A DNA stretch of 64,000 nt. Origin: Pseudomonas sp. ERMR1:02 (GTDB lineage Bacteria > Pseudomonadota > Gammaproteobacteria > Pseudomonadales > Pseudomonadaceae). A program made the translations under genes and the position numbers. Positions 43,837-50,770 of this stretch are shown piece by piece; position 1 is the stretch's first letter; every line of letters starts with the position of its first letter. The stretch is taken from positions 248,001 through 312,000 of the forward strand of contig NZ_NKJI01000006.1 of the NCBI RefSeq assembly GCF_002277815.1, in the 5' to 3' direction. The notes beneath the pieces were generated by a model. It saw nothing but the letters and a program-made list of their open reading frames with translations, ran no database searches and was not told the origin of the DNA.

Positions 43837-43915
43837 GAGGGAGGTGGTGGTGATCGTACAACCGCGTTGAGCTATGATGCGGTTTCAGCCGAATTTTTCG
43901 AGACAGATGTTCACC

Positions 43916-44665
43916 ATGGAAAACCCGATCGACGCACCACGCCTCCCTCGCAAGCGCCGCAGCCTCGCTCAGGAACTGGTGACGGTGCTGTCCGAGCAGA
44001 TTCGCGACGGTCACCTCAAGCGTGGCGACAAATTGCCCACCGAGTCGGCAATCATGGACGCCCATGGCGTTAGCCGCACGGTGGTGCGCGAGGCGATTTC
44101 CCGTTTGCAGGCGGCCGGCCAGGTTGAAACCCGCCACGGCATCGGCACCTTCGTGCTCGATACCCCGAGCCCGAGCGGTTTTCGCATCGACCCGGCGACC
44201 GTGGTCACCTTGCGTGACGTGTTGGCGATTCTGGAACTGCGCATCAGCCTGGAAGTGGAGTCCGCAGGCCTCGCCGCGCAACGCCGCAGCGCCGAGCAGC
44301 TTGGTCTGATGAGGGCTGCACTGGATGCGCTGAATGAAAGTGTCTCCCACGCCAGCGATGCCGTGGCCTCGGACTTCCAGTTCCACCTGCAGATTGCGCT
44401 GGCCACCGGCAACCGTTACTTCACAGACATCATGACTCACCTGGGTACCAGCATCATCCCGCGCACCCGTCTCAACTCCGCGCGGCTGGCCCATGACGAT
44501 CAGCAGCACTACATGAATCGCCTGAGCCGTGAGCACGAGGAGATCTACGACGCGATTGCCCGCCAAGACTCCGACGCCGCCCGCGCGGCCATGCGCCTGC
44601 ACCTGACCAACAGCCGGGAACGGCTACGTCATGCCCATGAAGAGGCTGAGGCGCAGCGGGGGTAA
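43916..44665 (+). CDS. FadR-subfamily GntR regulator, probable galactarate regulator
   Basis: The product is 249 residues: an N-terminal winged helix (LKRGDKLPTESAIMDAHGVSRTVVREAI) and a C-terminal all-helical FCD ligand domain with the metal-site residues D-x4-H and later H (SDFQFHLQIALATGN). By position it controls the galactarate genes that follow, probably through the palindrome at 44967-44990. An in-frame ATG at 43907 (MFTMENP) is an alternative start and is nearer to the GAGACAG ribosome site. A -10 like TATGAT lies at 43873-43878. The ligand is inferred to be a sugar diacid or its breakdown product. Confidence 0.86.
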   Translation: MENPIDAPRLPRKRRSLAQELVTVLSEQIRDGHLKRGDKLPTESAIMDAHGVSRTVVREAISRLQAAGQVETRHGIGTFVLDTPSPSGFRIDPATVVTLRDVLAILELRISLEVESAGLAAQRRSAEQLGLMRAALDALNESVSHASDAVASDFQFHLQIALATGNRYFTDIMTHLGTSIIPRTRLNSARLAHDDQQHYMNRLSREHEEIYDAIARQDSDAARAAMRLHLTNSRERLRHAHEEAEAQRG

Positions 44666-44701
44666 GATTTCAGGCGAGGTCATTTGTCGCCTTTCAGATT
44701 G

Positions 44702-44770
44702 CCTTCGCGGGCAAGCCTCGCTCCTACAGGTTTGCGCCGTTCCTGTAGGAGCGAGGCTTGCCCGCGAAGG
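44702..44770. repeat. Divergent REP pair (GTAGGAGCGAGGC class)
   Basis: CCTTCGCGGGCAAGCCTCGC and its exact complement are separated by about 13 bases, forming a long perfect hairpin of 28-base arms after the GntR gene. Confidence 0.87.
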
Positions 44771-44950
44771 GGTCATACGTCATCCACAAAACCGTCAGCC
44801 ACTCCACTGATTGTCTGGCCGAATCTCCCGACAACGTATCTCTGTAGAGCCGTTTGTCGCACCAACTCCGCCCCCCCCACTCAAAGGCCATGAAACCCGG
44901 TCTTCAAACGTTCTTGTCGAACAATTTTCACCCACAGCGATGAAATGCAG

Positions 44951-44990
44951 TTGACGGTTGTATTTTAAGTTGTACGATGACCTACAACTT
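44951..44990 (+). promoter_or_regulatory. kdgD promoter with overlapping palindromic operator
   Basis: The -35 TTGACG (44951-44956) and -10 TACGAT (44973-44978) are 16 bases apart. A perfect palindrome, AAGTTGTA (44967-44974) and TACAACTT (44983-44990) with an 8-base spacer, covers the -10 region, the right position for repression by the neighbouring GntR-family protein. Confidence 0.68.
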
Positions 44991-45044: not shown

Positions 45045-45956
45045 ATGAATCCACAAGAACTGAAGTCCATCCTTTCTGCCGGTCTGCTGTCTTTCCCGGT
45101 CACCGATTTCAATGCTCAGGGCGATTTCAACCGCGCGGGCTACATCAAACGTCTGGAATGGCTGGCCCCATACGGCGCCTCGGCCCTATTCGCCGCAGGC
45201 GGCACCGGTGAGTTCTTCTCCCTGGCGGCCAGCGAATATTCGGAAATCATCAAGACCGCCGTCGACACCTGCGCTACCAGCGTGCCGATTCTGGCCGGCG
45301 TTGGCGGTTCGACCCGTCAAGCCATCGAATACGCTCAGGAAGCCGAGCGTCTGGGCGCCAAAGGCCTGTTGCTGCTGCCGCACTATTTGACCGAAGCCAG
45401 CCAGGACGGCGTTGCCGCCCACGTTGAAGCCGTGTGCAAATCGGTCAACATCGGTGTTGTGGTTTACAACCGAAACGTCTGCCGCCTGACCGCGCCGCTG
45501 CTGGAACGCCTGGCCGAGCGCTGCCCGAACCTGATCGGCTACAAGGATGGCCTGGGTGATATCGAATTGATGGTGTCGATCCGTCGCCGCCTCGGTGATC
45601 GCTTCAGCTACCTGGGCGGTTTGCCAACCGCCGAAGTCTACGCCGCGGCCTACAAGGCACTGGGTGTGCCGGTCTACTCCTCGGCGGTGTTCAACTTCAT
45701 CCCGAAAACCGCGATGGATTTCTACCACGCGATCGCTCGCGAAGATCACGCCACCGTCGGCAAGATCATCGATGACTTCTTCCTGCCGTACCTGGACATC
45801 CGCAACCGCAAGGCCGGCTACGCCGTGAGCATCGTCAAGGCCGGGGCAAAAATCGCCGGCTATGACGCAGGCCCTGTGCGTGCACCGCTGACCGACCTGA
45901 CCGGCGAAGAGTACGAAATGCTCGCCGCGTTGATCGACAAGCAAGGTGCGCAGTAA
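45045..45956 (+). CDS. kdgD: 5-dehydro-4-deoxyglucarate dehydratase KdgD
   Basis: The product is 303 residues of the DapA/NAL aldolase family. It turns 5-keto-4-deoxyglucarate into 2-oxoglutarate semialdehyde, CO2 and water. The Schiff-base lysine is K167 ([10 protein letters not shown]). The GGTGEFFSL substrate loop and the Y141 region (VVYNRN) are typical of KdgD. The ATG at 45045 gives the exact family length. The frame is open upstream but crosses the promoter. A terminator follows at once (45973-45999). Confidence 0.94.
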
Positions 45957-45972
45957 CACATCAAATTGAACG

Positions 45973-45999
45973 AGGCCGCTGAGTATTCAGCGGCCTTTT
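45973..45999 (+). terminator. Rho-independent terminator after kdgD
   Basis: A perfect 10-base stem (AGGCCGCTGA / TCAGCGGCCT) with a GTAT loop is followed by TTT. It separates kdgD from the dehydrogenase, so read-through or attenuation is needed if they share a promoter. Confidence 0.85.
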
Positions 46000-46030
46000 G
46001 CGTAAGGCTTTTTGTTTCGAGGGCAGTCCC

Positions 46031-47476
46031 GTGACAGATGCAAAACGTTACGACAACTACATCAACGGTGAATGGGTCGCCGGTGCCGATTACTCGGCCA
46101 ACATCAACCCGTCGGAATTGAGCGACACCATCGGCGACTACGCCAAGGCTGACCTGGCCCAGGTCAACGCTGCCATCGACGCTGCCCGTGCCGCATTTCC
46201 AGCGTGGTCCACGTCCGGTATCCAGGCACGTCACGACTCCCTGGATAAAGTCGGCACCGAAATCCTCGCCCGTCGCGAAGAGCTCGGCACCCTGCTGGCC
46301 CGGGAAGAGGGCAAGACCCTGCCCGAAGCCATCGGCGAAGTGACCCGCGCCGGTAACATCTTCAAATTCTTCGCCGGTGAAACCCTACGTCTGTCCGGCG
46401 ACTATCTGCCGTCGGTGCGTCCGGGTGTGAACGTCGAAGTGACACGTGAAGCATTGGGTGTGGTTGGCCTGATCACTCCGTGGAATTTCCCGATTGCGAT
46501 CCCTGCGTGGAAAATCGCCCCGGCTCTGGCCTACGGCAACTGCGTCGTGCTCAAGCCTGCGGATTTGGTACCGGGTTGCGCCTGGGCACTGGCCGAAATC
46601 ATCTCTCGCGCAGGCTTCCCGGCCGGCGTGTTCAACCTGGTGATGGGCAGCGGTCGTGTGGTCGGTGAAGCGCTGGTCAACAGCCCGAAAGTCGATGGCA
46701 TCAGCTTCACCGGTTCCGTTGGCGTCGGTCGTCAGATCGCCGTTAGTTGCGTGTCGCGTCAGGCCAAGGTCCAGCTGGAAATGGGCGGCAAGAACCCGCA
46801 GATCATTCTCGACGATGCCGACCTCAAGCAAGCGGTCGAGTTGTCGGTGCAGAGCGCGTTCTACTCCACCGGCCAACGTTGCACCGCTTCGAGCCGCTTT
46901 ATCGTCACTGCCGGCATCCACGACCAGTTCGTTGAAGCCGTGGCCGAGCGCATGAAATCGATCAAGGTCGGCCACGCGCTGAAAGCCGGCACCGACATCG
47001 GCCCGGTGGTTTCCCAAGCGCAGCTTGAACAGGACATGAAGTACATCGACATCGGCCAGTCCGAAGGTGCACGTCTGGTCAGCGGTGGTGGTCTGGTGAC
47101 CTGCGACACCGAAGGTTACTTCCTTGCGCCAACCCTGTTTGCCGACAGCGAAGCATCGATGCGCATCAGCCGCGAAGAGATCTTCGGTCCGGTGGCCAAC
47201 GTCGTCCGCGTGGCTGACTACGAAGCTGCATTGGCCATGGCCAACGACACCGAGTTCGGTCTGTCGGCAGGCATCGCCACCACATCGTTGAAGTACGCCA
47301 ACCACTTCAAACGCCACTCCCAGGCCGGAATGGTGATGGTCAATCTGCCGACCGCCGGCGTGGATTACCACGTTCCGTTCGGCGGGCGTAAAGGTTCATC
47401 CTATGGATCACGTGAGCAAGGCCGTTATGCGCAAGAGTTCTACACAGTCGTAAAAACCAGCTACATCGGCTCGTAA
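46031..47476 (+). CDS. 2-oxoglutarate semialdehyde (2,5-dioxovalerate) dehydrogenase, GTG start
   Basis: The product is 481 residues of the NAD(P)-dependent aldehyde dehydrogenase superfamily. It is the last step of the pathway, making 2-oxoglutarate for the TCA cycle. The catalytic cysteine (STGQRCTASSR), general-base glutamate (LEMGGKNP) and NAD-site GSVGVGRQ are present. A GTG at 46031 with GAGGGCA upstream gives the family-standard length and N-terminus (TDAKRYDNYINGEWV). The open frame runs 33 bases further, but only to a TTG. Confidence 0.9.
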   Translation: MTDAKRYDNYINGEWVAGADYSANINPSELSDTIGDYAKADLAQVNAAIDAARAAFPAWSTSGIQARHDSLDKVGTEILARREELGTLLAREEGKTLPEAIGEVTRAGNIFKFFAGETLRLSGDYLPSVRPGVNVEVTREALGVVGLITPWNFPIAIPAWKIAPALAYGNCVVLKPADLVPGCAWALAEIISRAGFPAGVFNLVMGSGRVVGEALVNSPKVDGISFTGSVGVGRQIAVSCVSRQAKVQLEMGGKNPQIILDDADLKQAVELSVQSAFYSTGQRCTASSRFIVTAGIHDQFVEAVAERMKSIKVGHALKAGTDIGPVVSQAQLEQDMKYIDIGQSEGARLVSGGGLVTCDTEGYFLAPTLFADSEASMRISREEIFGPVANVVRVADYEAALAMANDTEFGLSAGIATTSLKYANHFKRHSQAGMVMVNLPTAGVDYHVPFGGRKGSSYGSREQGRYAQEFYTVVKTSYIGS

Positions 47477-47666: not shown

Positions 47667-49037
47667 ATGCAATCGACCCAGAAGCCGACTCACGTCCGCT
47701 ATTTGATCCTGCTCATGCTTTTCCTGGTGACCACGATCAACTACGCCGACCGGGCGACCATCGCAATCGCTGGCTCCAGTCTGCAAAAAGACCTCGGCAT
47801 TGACGCGGTCACTCTCGGTTACATCTTCTCCGCATTCGGTTGGGCCTACGTGGCCGGGCAAATTCCCGGTGGCTGGCTGCTTGACCGTTTCGGTTCGAAA
47901 AAAATCTACGCGCTGAGCATCTTCACCTGGTCGGTGTTCACCGTGCTGCAGGGTTATGTCGGCGAGTTCGGAATGTCCACGGCGATCGTTGCGTTGTTCA
48001 TGCTGCGCTTCCTGGTGGGGCTGGCCGAAGCACCGTCCTTCCCCGGCAACGCACGCATCGTCGCGGCCTGGTTCCCGACCGCTGAACGCGGTACGGCCTC
48101 GGCGATCTTCAATTCGGCGCAATACTTTGCCACGGTATTGTTCGCACCACTGATGGGCTGGATCGTCTACAGCTTCGGCTGGCAGCACGTGTTCATCGTC
48201 ATGGGCGTGATCGGCATCATCTTCTCGCTGATCTGGCTGAAAGTTATCCACAGTCCGCGCCAGCACCCGAGGATCAATGACGCCGAGTTCAAGCACATCG
48301 CCGACAACGGCGGCATGGTCGACATGGACCAGGACAAAGGCAAAGGTAAAAAGGTCGACGGTCCGAAGTGGGACTACATCCGCCAGCTACTGACCAACCG
48401 CATGATGCTTGGCGTGTACCTGGGTCAGTACTGCATCAACGGCATCACCTACTTCTTTCTGACCTGGTTCCCGGTGTACCTGGTGCAAGAGCGCGGCATG
48501 ACCATTCTCAAGGCCGGGTTCATTGCCTCGTTGCCGGCGATCTGCGGCTTTATCGGTGGTGTGCTTGGCGGCGTGATTTCCGATTACCTGCTGCGCAAGG
48601 GCCATTCCCTGACCTTCGCCCGCAAGGCGCCGATCATCGCCGGTCTGTTGGTCTCCAGCAGCATTGTGGCCTGTAACTACGTCGACATCGAATGGATGGT
48701 CGTGGGCTTCATGGCCCTGGCGTTCTTTGGCAAAGGCGTGGGCGCACTGGGCTGGGCCGTGGTGTCCGACACATCGCCGAAACAGATCGCCGGTTTGAGC
48801 GGTGGCCTTTTCAACATGTTCGGTAACCTCGCCTCGATCACCACCCCGATCGTCATCGGTTACATCATCAGCTCCACCGGTTCGTTCAAATGGGCGCTGG
48901 TGTTTGTCGGTTGCAACGCACTGGTCGCGGTGTTCAGCTATCTGGTCATCGTGGGTCCGATCAAGCGTGTGGTGCTCAAAGAGCCACCGCTCAATGGTCC
49001 AGAAACCAACAATAAATTGTCTCAAGCGCATTCCTGA
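47667..49037 (+). CDS. gudP: GudP-type galactarate/glucarate MFS transporter
   Basis: The product is 456 residues with twelve membrane helices of the anion:cation symporter branch of the major facilitator family. The conserved N-terminal [31 protein letters not shown] and [17 protein letters not shown] segments are typical of GudP. It imports D-galactarate and D-glucarate by proton symport. GTGGGAG lies before the ATG. garD follows 11 bases after the stop, so the two are cotranscribed. Confidence 0.92.
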
Positions 49038-49048
49038 GGAGCGGCGTC

Positions 49049-50602
49049 ATGCAGTTGATTGAACATTCCGACTCGCCGCGCTACATCCGCCTGCACGAGC
49101 GGGACAACGTAGTGATCGTGGTCAATGACCAAGGCGTGCCCGCCGGCACTGAGTTTGCGGATGGCCTGGTCACCGTGGACTTCGTTCCACAGAGCCACAA
49201 GGTCACCCTGGAGGACATTCCCGAGGGTGGCCAGGTAATTCGTTACGGCCAGACCATTGGCTACGCGTTGCAGCCGATACCGCGCGGCAGCTGGGTCAAG
49301 GAAGATCAACTGCGCATGCCGACCGCGCCGCCGCTGGACAGCCTGCCGCTATCCACCGAAGTGCCGGCCGCGCAAGCACCGCTGGAAGGCTATACCTTCG
49401 AGGGTTATCGCAATGCCGACGGAACCGTCGGCACGCGCAACATTCTTGGCATCACCACCACGGTGCAGTGCGTGACCGGTGTGCTGGATCACGCGGTCAA
49501 GCGCATCAAGGACGAGTTGTTGCCCAAGTACCCACACGTCGATGACGTGGTGGCGCTGACCCACAGTTACGGGTGTGGCGTGGCAATTACCGCCACTGAC
49601 GCGTACATCCCGATTCGCACTGTGCGCAACCTGGCGCGCAACCCGAACCTGGGCGGCGAAGCGTTGGTAATCAGCCTGGGCTGCGAGAAATTGCAGGCTG
49701 GGCAGGTGATGCACGAAGGCGACAGCTCGGTGGATTTGAGCGAGCCGTGGCTGTATCGCCTGCAGGATTCCAGTCACGGTTTTACCGAGATGATCGAGCA
49801 GATCATGGCACTGGCTGAAACCCGCTTGAAGAAGCTCGATCAACGCCGCCGGGAAACCGTACCGGCGTCCGAGCTGATCCTGGGCATGCAGTGTGGCGGC
49901 AGTGATGCATTTTCTGGAATCACCGCCAACCCGGCCTTGGGCTATGCCTCGGATCTGTTGTTGCGCGCCGGTGCGACGGTGATGTTTTCGGAAGTGACCG
50001 AAGTGCGCGACGCGATCTACCTGCTGACTTCACGGGCGCAAACCAGGGAAGTCGCTCAGGAGTTGGTGCGGGAAATGGATTGGTACGATCGTTACCTGGC
50101 CAAGGGCGAAGCGGACCGTAGTGCCAACACAACGCCGGGCAACAAGAAGGGCGGGTTGTCGAACATTGTCGAGAAGTCGTTGGGCTCGATCGTCAAGTCC
50201 GGCAGCAGTGCGATCACTGGTGTGCTCGGCCCTGGCGAGCGTTTCAAGGAGAAAGGTCTGATCTTCTGCGCGACCCCAGCCAGCGACTTTGTCTGCGGGA
50301 CGTTGCAGTTGGCAGCGGGAATGAACCTGCATGTGTTTACTACCGGTCGCGGCACGCCTTACGGGCTGGCCATGGCGCCAGTGGTGAAGGTGTCGACCCG
50401 GACTGAATTGGCGCAGCGCTGGCCGGACCTGATCGACATCGACGCCGGGCGCATTGCTACCGGACGCGCTTCTATCGAAGACCTTGGCTGGGAGTTGTTC
50501 CACTACTACCTGGACGTGGCCAGCGGCAAGAAGCAGACATGGGCGGAGCGGCACAAACTGCATAACGACATCACCCTGTTCAACCCGGCGCCGATCACCT
50601 AA
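49049..50602 (+). CDS. garD: Galactarate dehydratase GarD
   Basis: The product is 517 residues of the UxaA/GarD family. It dehydrates D-galactarate to 5-keto-4-deoxyglucarate, the substrate of KdgD. The N-terminal 90 or so residues form a SAF domain. The main domain has the conserved [32 protein letters not shown] and [20 protein letters not shown] segments of the iron-dependent catalytic region. GAGGAGCGGC precedes the ATG. It is the last gene of the cluster and is followed by a REP pair. Confidence 0.94.
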
Positions 50603-50616
50603 GACCGAGTCGCCTG

Positions 50617-50693
50617 CTTCGCGAGCAAGCCCGCTCCCACATATAATCTGCGTCGTATGGAGATCCAATGTGGGAGCGGGCTTGCTCGCGAAG
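50617..50693. repeat. Divergent REP pair (GTGGGAGCGGGC class)
   Basis: CTTCGCGAGCAAGCCCGCTC and its complement are about 25 bases apart, after garD. It also lies within the false 5' extension of the next open frame. Confidence 0.85.
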
Positions 50694-50770
50694 GCAGACT
50701 ACCAGACGCCGATGTCCTTGGTGGCTTATCATTAGCCCCTAACGACGCCCACCTCAAGGTCCTCCCCGGC

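Follow-up and report, generated by a model that had tools for sequence, protein, structure and literature searches.

In E. coli, the galactarate and glucarate genes are controlled by CdaR, an activator whose family is unrelated to GntR. Among GntR-family regulators, the operators of the FadR subfamily are described as a pair of boxes, TKGT and ACMA, with three nucleotides between GT and AC (PMC4494728). The same account links an arginine at the position of FadR Arg35 with G as the second base of TKGT, and reports, for 23 GntR groups, additional boxes at a distance of 7–12 nt from the centre of the site, the function of which it leaves open (PMC4494728).

The window analysed here (the whole stretch of Pseudomonas sp. 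ERMR1:02 DNA, 64,000 nt) carries kdgD, an aldehyde dehydrogenase gene, an MFS transporter gene and garD in this order on one strand, with a GntR/FCD gene upstream of kdgD (Table 1). The start of gntR was placed by inference at the ATG of MENPID, because the upstream ATG at 43874 falls within the -10. The product of this gene has the domain pair of the FadR subfamily, scoring 70 bits for PF00392 (cut-off 27) and 88.5 bits for PF07729 (cut-off 24.3), and shares 23% identity with E. coli FadR (E 1e-10). Scores for the named GntR equivalogs (NanR, LldR, ExuR, the UxuR regulator, GlcC, PdhR and FadR) were all below the curated cut-offs, the best being 111 of 260 bits for NanR, 102 of 311 for LldR and 93 of 396 for ExuR. 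The regulator keeps FadR Glu34, Arg45, Thr46 and Arg49, and has Ser for Arg35 and Val for Thr47. REP-like inverted repeats, recognised by eye, form a pair between gntR and kdgD (44700–44775) and are seen again after garD (50615–50695).

Table 1. Features of the gntR–kdgD–garD locus, in window coordinates
Feature	Position	Strand	Basis
Candidate core operator GTTGTACGATCAC, gntR promoter, over the -35/spacer region	43850..43862	-	exact in 78/79 relatives
Probable gntR -10, TATGAT	43873..43878	+	position relative to core fixed in 78/78
GntR-family regulator, FadR subfamily (GntR HTH + FCD)	43916..44665	+	Pfam PF00392, PF07729
Predicted kdgD sigma-70-like promoter, TTGACG (44951-44956)-16-TACGAT (44973-44978)	44951..44978	+	-10 within candidate operator; conserved in alignment
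Palindrome AAGTTGTA-N8-TACAACTT, candidate core operator + third half-site	44967..44990	+	exact match, conservation
Candidate core operator GTTGTACGATGAC	44969..44981	+	exact in 78/80 kdgD promoters; recurs at gntR, oprD
Putative core boxes TTGT and ATGA, FadR-type reading	44970..44973, 44977..44980	+	3 nt apart
Putative third half-site ACAA, 7 bp beyond core, completing the palindrome	44984..44987	+	7-bp phase enrichment
kdgD, 5-dehydro-4-deoxyglucarate dehydratase	45045..45956	+	TIGR03249, 440 bits, cut-off 374
Aldehyde dehydrogenase, probably alpha-ketoglutarate semialdehyde dehydrogenase	45998..47476	+	best NCBIfam NF042993 under cut-off; PF00171
MFS transporter, galactonate/glucarate type	47667..49037	+	TIGR00893 above cut-off
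garD, galactarate dehydratase	49049..50602	+	TIGR03248 above cut-off

The palindrome, AAGTTGTA-CGATGACC-TACAACTT, is present with zero mismatches, and nothing else in the window matches its 24-nt pattern at ≤3 mismatches, a threshold at which 7 of 100 shuffles yielded a match. The preliminary description had located it across the -10 of TTGACG-16-TACGAT and downstream of a GntR-family gene, and both its coordinates and its sequence proved exact. TTGACG-16-TACGAT is the sole promoter-like site between 43750 and 45100 (shuffles average 0.2), and the palindrome overlaps its -10. In the whole assembly, the window site is the only exact match to the 24-nt pattern; at ≤3 mismatches there are 6 matches per strand versus 27 per strand for the reversed control, and the whole pattern was rejected as a genome-wide repeated motif because its count lies below that of the control. 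The perfection of the palindrome was not counted as evidence either, because the window is rich in inverted repeats of that size: 89 perfect ones of 8 bp with a spacer of 0–20 are present (longer ones counted more than once) versus 16–49 in ten first-order Markov simulations, and 8 with a spacer of exactly 8 versus 0–6. What exceeds chance is the conservation of the palindrome and the recurrence of its left part, not the inverted repeat per se.

Conservation at kdgD was assessed in the best 80 of 583 confirmed loci, all from close Pseudomonas relatives and with 80 distinct upstream sequences (loci L085–L114, not oriented to one strand, are included in no count). Of these promoters, 78 carry an exact copy of the 13-nt core GTTGTACGATGAC, the left part of the palindrome, and the remaining two have GTTGTACGATAAC; the inner 20-mer GTTGTACGATnACnTACAAC, which comprises the core with the right arm, is likewise kept in 78, and 63 keep the full arms of the 24-nt pattern. 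Averaged over positions, the commonest base reaches a frequency of 0.998 across the core and 0.98 across the palindrome; the means are 0.87 for the 36 nt on the upstream side, 0.85 for the 36 nt on the downstream side and 0.53 for the next 34 nt upstream. Such conserved flanks, together with the inclusion of TACGAT in the core, could mean that the block is preserved as a promoter (-35, -10 and start) and leader, and not as an operator. We consider this very improbable, given that the same 13 nt are found reversed over the -35/spacer region of gntR and just upstream of a TTGACA at oprD, places in which they do not form a -10. Slightly more improbable still is an RNA hairpin acting as a leader or terminator signal: the transcript strand does fold the arms into a 7-bp stem, but the folding is no better than that of shuffles (z 0.42; 129/200 at least as good), the greater part of the palindrome precedes the start that the -10 would predict, and it is the core, not the stem, that is conserved.

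The candidate operator core also marks the promoter of the regulator itself. Gene and upstream region of gntR are held by 79 of the 80 kdgD-relative loci (L065 excepted), and 78 of these 79 have GTGATCGTACAAC (the reverse complement of GTTGTACGATCAC) upstream of gntR, every time 10 nt before a TATGAT-like -10, the single relative without it being L082. At this promoter the core is oriented opposite to that at kdgD, and the palindrome lacks its right arm. The arrangement points to an apparent autoregulation of gntR through the core in its own promoter. Autoregulation of this kind would not be universal, because six genomes of one other genus (L258–L263) have no core in the 130 nt upstream of gntR; their kdgD upstream regions carry GTTGTACGATGACTTACAAC, a palindromic form.

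A search of the 6.7-Mb assembly with GTTGTACGATSAC gave five exact matches, all of them at gntR (one), kdgD (one) or oprD (three). The three oprD cores, found in the 370 bp that precede an OprD-type porin gene, come from a ~178-bp repeat in which REP-like sequence is also present; the units, with one core each, stand in tandem at C15:81880–82460 (L137 5880–6460). The porin gene (L137 6468–7562) has its frame broken near the start, which could reflect a draft error or a pseudogene, and has intact relatives in other genomes; the porin matches BenF-like and OpdK porins. Allowing one mismatch raised the number of core matches to 20 (5 exact and 15 with one mismatch) versus 13 for the reversed control, so most one-mismatch sites are taken to be noise. 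One of them, GTTGTACGACGAC, lies beyond the TTGACA of the porin promoter; another, GTTGTACGACCAC, lies ~30 nt before a stretch matching an MFS transporter (83% identity to the one in L199); for the other 13 we found no regulon neighbour save weak hits at L120 (gntR query, 28%) and L133 (chemoreceptor query, 30%).

Across 59 Pseudomonas genomes, this one included, we counted 130 exact cores versus 9 matches to the reversed pattern (61 of the 130, two of them from this genome, were assigned to gntR/kdgD by coordinates). The core accompanies the regulator: it is present in 51 of the 53 genomes with the regulator (all save G041 and G042) and in none of the six without it (G003, G007, G014, G032, G037 and G054), which yield weak kdgD matches at best (E 4e-28 to 6e-21). 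The picture was similar for 72 genomes of the family's other genera (29 cores versus 7 reversed matches), with the core in 17 of 25 genomes that have the regulator and in 2 of 47 that lack it (G574 and G601, one exact core each); the 8 regulator-positive genomes without an exact core have near variants upstream of gntR, such as GTTATCGTACAAC or GTCGTCGTACAAC, and near variants are likewise seen there in G041 and G042. Fisher values for this co-occurrence are 6e-7 and 1e-8, which overstate independence because the genomes share ancestry. Outside the family the regulator is rare, only this genome and G404 passing E 1e-60 among 274 genomes of the class. Further GntR paralogues are present in many genomes. 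The preliminary description had proposed an operator at kdgD; conservation, recurrence at gntR and co-occurrence strongly favour an operator for the adjacent GntR regulator, though not one that serves kdgD alone.

The core at kdgD reads TTGT-ACG-ATGA, the second box being ATGA here and ATCA at gntR. Its TTGT box and 3-nt spacing fit the TKGT/ACMA model, whereas the second box departs from ACMA; a one-mismatch site on C21, TTGTACGACCA, fits both boxes and the spacing in full. T as the second base of the first box is unsurprising, because the residue equivalent to Arg35 is Ser and the link drawn in the published account is between Arg and G (PMC4494728). Judging from these residues and bases, Ser at this position may go with T in place of G.

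We looked for further boxes around the core in 60 classified sites, reduced to 52 non-redundant ones at 80% flank identity. An AYRA box (a definition made after the sites were seen) stands to the right of the core at the 7-bp phase in 21 of the 52 sites versus 0–3 at each of 31 other offsets (13 to 44), and without the DUF4440 class in 10 of 41 versus at most 3 elsewhere. A phased box to the left of the core occurs at 1 of 52 sites, with no enrichment. This third box, 9–12 nt from the core centre (44975), is distributed by class: it is present at DUF4440 (11/11), kdgD (5/6), 2-hydroxyacid dehydrogenase (2/3), MFS (2/4) and enolase-family (1/2) promoters, and there is none at gntR (0/9), chemoreceptor (0/6), aldehyde dehydrogenase (0/5), oprD-udh (0/4), udh (0/1) and T2SS (0/1) promoters. 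It reads ACAA at kdgD in the window and ATGA, ACGA or ATAA at other promoters. A third AYRA box was also found by reading in 10 of 15 kdgD upstream regions, L243, L248, L249, L250 and L254 being without one. Phased boxes were also seen outside the family, where L136 has a regulator 57% identical to this one, beside a gene 58% identical to the L200 uronate dehydrogenase; the sequence upstream of that regulator, TTGT-CTG-TTGT-CGG-TTGT-CAG-ACAA, has its TTGT boxes in 7-bp phase.

These data bear on what the recognition unit is. The preliminary description took it to be the palindrome with its N8 spacer, in which case a dimer of another, non-FadR-type regulator would grip both GTTGTA arms. Both arms are kept at kdgD, as the 78/80 count for the 20-mer attests, and the palindromic form recurs in L258–L263. 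Even so, we judge this reading improbable: gntR, oprD-udh and chemoreceptor promoters keep the 13-nt core and lack the right arm, leaving the left 13 nt as the shared unit; the cores track the GntR gene across genomes; and the frequent ATGA, ACGA or ATAA in the third box elsewhere implies a box in phase and not a mirror image. The operator unit is probably the FadR-type box pair TTGT-ACG-ATGA, the palindrome being this pair plus the third box ACAA.

To see which genes the core precedes in relatives, we surveyed 64 single-core regions (L167–L230) plus L137 and L231, of which 65 were counted and L231 was left out. The cores were found before or between gntR (10 loci), kdgD (7), a DUF4440 protein gene (12), a 4HB-type chemoreceptor gene (7, one uncertain), aldehyde dehydrogenase (5), MFS transporters (4), oprD (4), an enolase-superfamily gene (4), 2-hydroxyacid dehydrogenase (3), a type II secretion pseudopilin (3) and uronate dehydrogenase (1), with 5 loci of no class (L196, L198, L213, L216 and L217, left out of the promoter-class counts). 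Class labels are loose for L191 (a chemoreceptor 45% identical, or MFS), L169 (53% identical) and L180 and L209 (between divergent genes). Part of a udh gene follows oprD in the three oprD loci that reach that far; oprD and then a partial udh gene were read in L177, L179, L228 and L209, and the core of L209 precedes an MFS gene on the opposite side by 108 nt and is 422 nt from oprD. The four enolase-superfamily sites are near a gene 62–66% identical to uronate dehydrogenase, and for the enolase-family protein the match is 1rvk, an isomerase/lactonizing enzyme. Aldehyde dehydrogenase (74–83% identical) is also close to gntR in L167, L168, L190, L193 and L195. The uronate dehydrogenase behind the core in L200 matches PDB 3rft (E 7e-84), and comparison of the N-terminal part of the chemoreceptor with the PDB gave no convincing relative.

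Three further observations were made in these regions. The commonest extra gene encodes a small DUF4440/SnoaL-like protein (L170, L172, L176 and 9 other loci), probably exported, as judged by eye from a signal-like N-terminus. In G009 (L194 1980–2160), kdgD and a chemoreceptor gene are transcribed divergently; the region between them holds two core-like sites placed back to back, and a third stands closer to the chemoreceptor. At about position 2001 in L173, L174 and L208, divergent pseudopilin genes belonging to a type II secretion cluster flank the core.

The core thus occurs at pathway genes beyond the local operon, which suggests a galactarate/hexuronate regulon. The link to galactarate made in the preliminary description is supported, with garD and kdgD in the operon and uronate dehydrogenase behind the core elsewhere, and in relatives the core is also found at porin, udh, transporter and chemoreceptor genes. 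Some of the wider targets (enolase-family, DUF4440, T2SS and aldehyde dehydrogenase) might instead belong to paralogues that share the motif. Three of the four enolase-family genomes (G011, G019 and G055) have a second regulator ~70% identical and ~3 kb from the site, and these three genomes also hold the T2SS sites (L173, L174 and L208). We think such a division of targets rather unlikely, though less so than the alternatives above; the genome studied here has one such regulator at E≤1e-40, with exact cores at gntR, kdgD and oprD, and the question concerns the extended regulon and leaves kdgD untouched.

On the evidence of sequence, then, the palindrome is very likely an operator of the upstream FadR-subfamily GntR regulator, a repressor in this reading. 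The regulator would bind the core TTGT-ACG-ATGA as a dimer over the kdgD -10 and keep RNA polymerase off until galactarate, glucarate or a derived keto-acid releases it. The mirrored right arm would act as a third half-site in 7-bp phase that strengthens binding at kdgD, through affinity or a further subunit. With the core over its -35/spacer region, gntR would be repressed likewise, and the copies at oprD, where sites flank TTGACA on both sides, and at other genes would extend control to a hexarate/hexuronate regulon. More tentatively, a single FadR-type repressor may work through a modular array of boxes in 7-bp phase, two of them at its own gene, the porin and the chemoreceptor and three at kdgD, some transporters and DUF4440, setting promoter-specific strength across a hexarate regulon of the Pseudomonas family; the regulon could further control chemotaxis toward plant sugar acids and, in certain species, type II secretion connected with them.

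If this is true, a GntR regulator that appears to have had no assignment gains an operator, together with a predicted regulon across the Pseudomonas family in which uptake, the oxidation of uronates, the breakdown of hexarates and a chemoreceptor are brought together. The promoters of kdgD and gntR would be natural three-box and two-box versions under one regulator, on which the extra half-sites of GntR operators can be tested. A galactarate/glucarate sensor would be expected on this reading, which also predicts the class of ligand of the 4HB-type chemoreceptor.

With the CdaR system of E. coli the kdgD locus has substrates in common, while the regulator family differs. The preliminary description had called the operator previously undescribed, which stands within the literature searched and reaches no further: in titles and the beginnings of abstracts we found no paper tying the regulator to galactarate in Pseudomonas, and the papers listed for the motif letters were unrelated. 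PP_3603, a GntR gene of P. putida, figures in one proteomics table (PMC7188995). As far as these searches show, the regulon is new and the kind of operator is known. The operators of FadR, LldR, PdhR, DgoR and ExuR, as described in PMC4494728, are like this one in a TTGT-type first box and a 3-nt gap, in overlapping the promoter, in apparent autoregulation and in having the regulator adjoin its target operon; they differ in an ACMA second box, which here is usually ATGA or ATCA. ACAA at 44984–44987 falls within the 7–12 nt range described for the additional half-sites of GntR operators (PMC4494728), and is here 7-bp phased, near-invariant at Pseudomonas kdgD and absent at gntR. Finally, Atu1419 of Agrobacterium fabrum, in the account of PMC7797058, is likewise an FCD-type GntR regulator with a palindrome over a -10 and with sites at its own and another promoter, but its palindrome is a 10-bp one, ATGTATACAT, it is a tetramer, and its effector and pathway are other than those proposed here.
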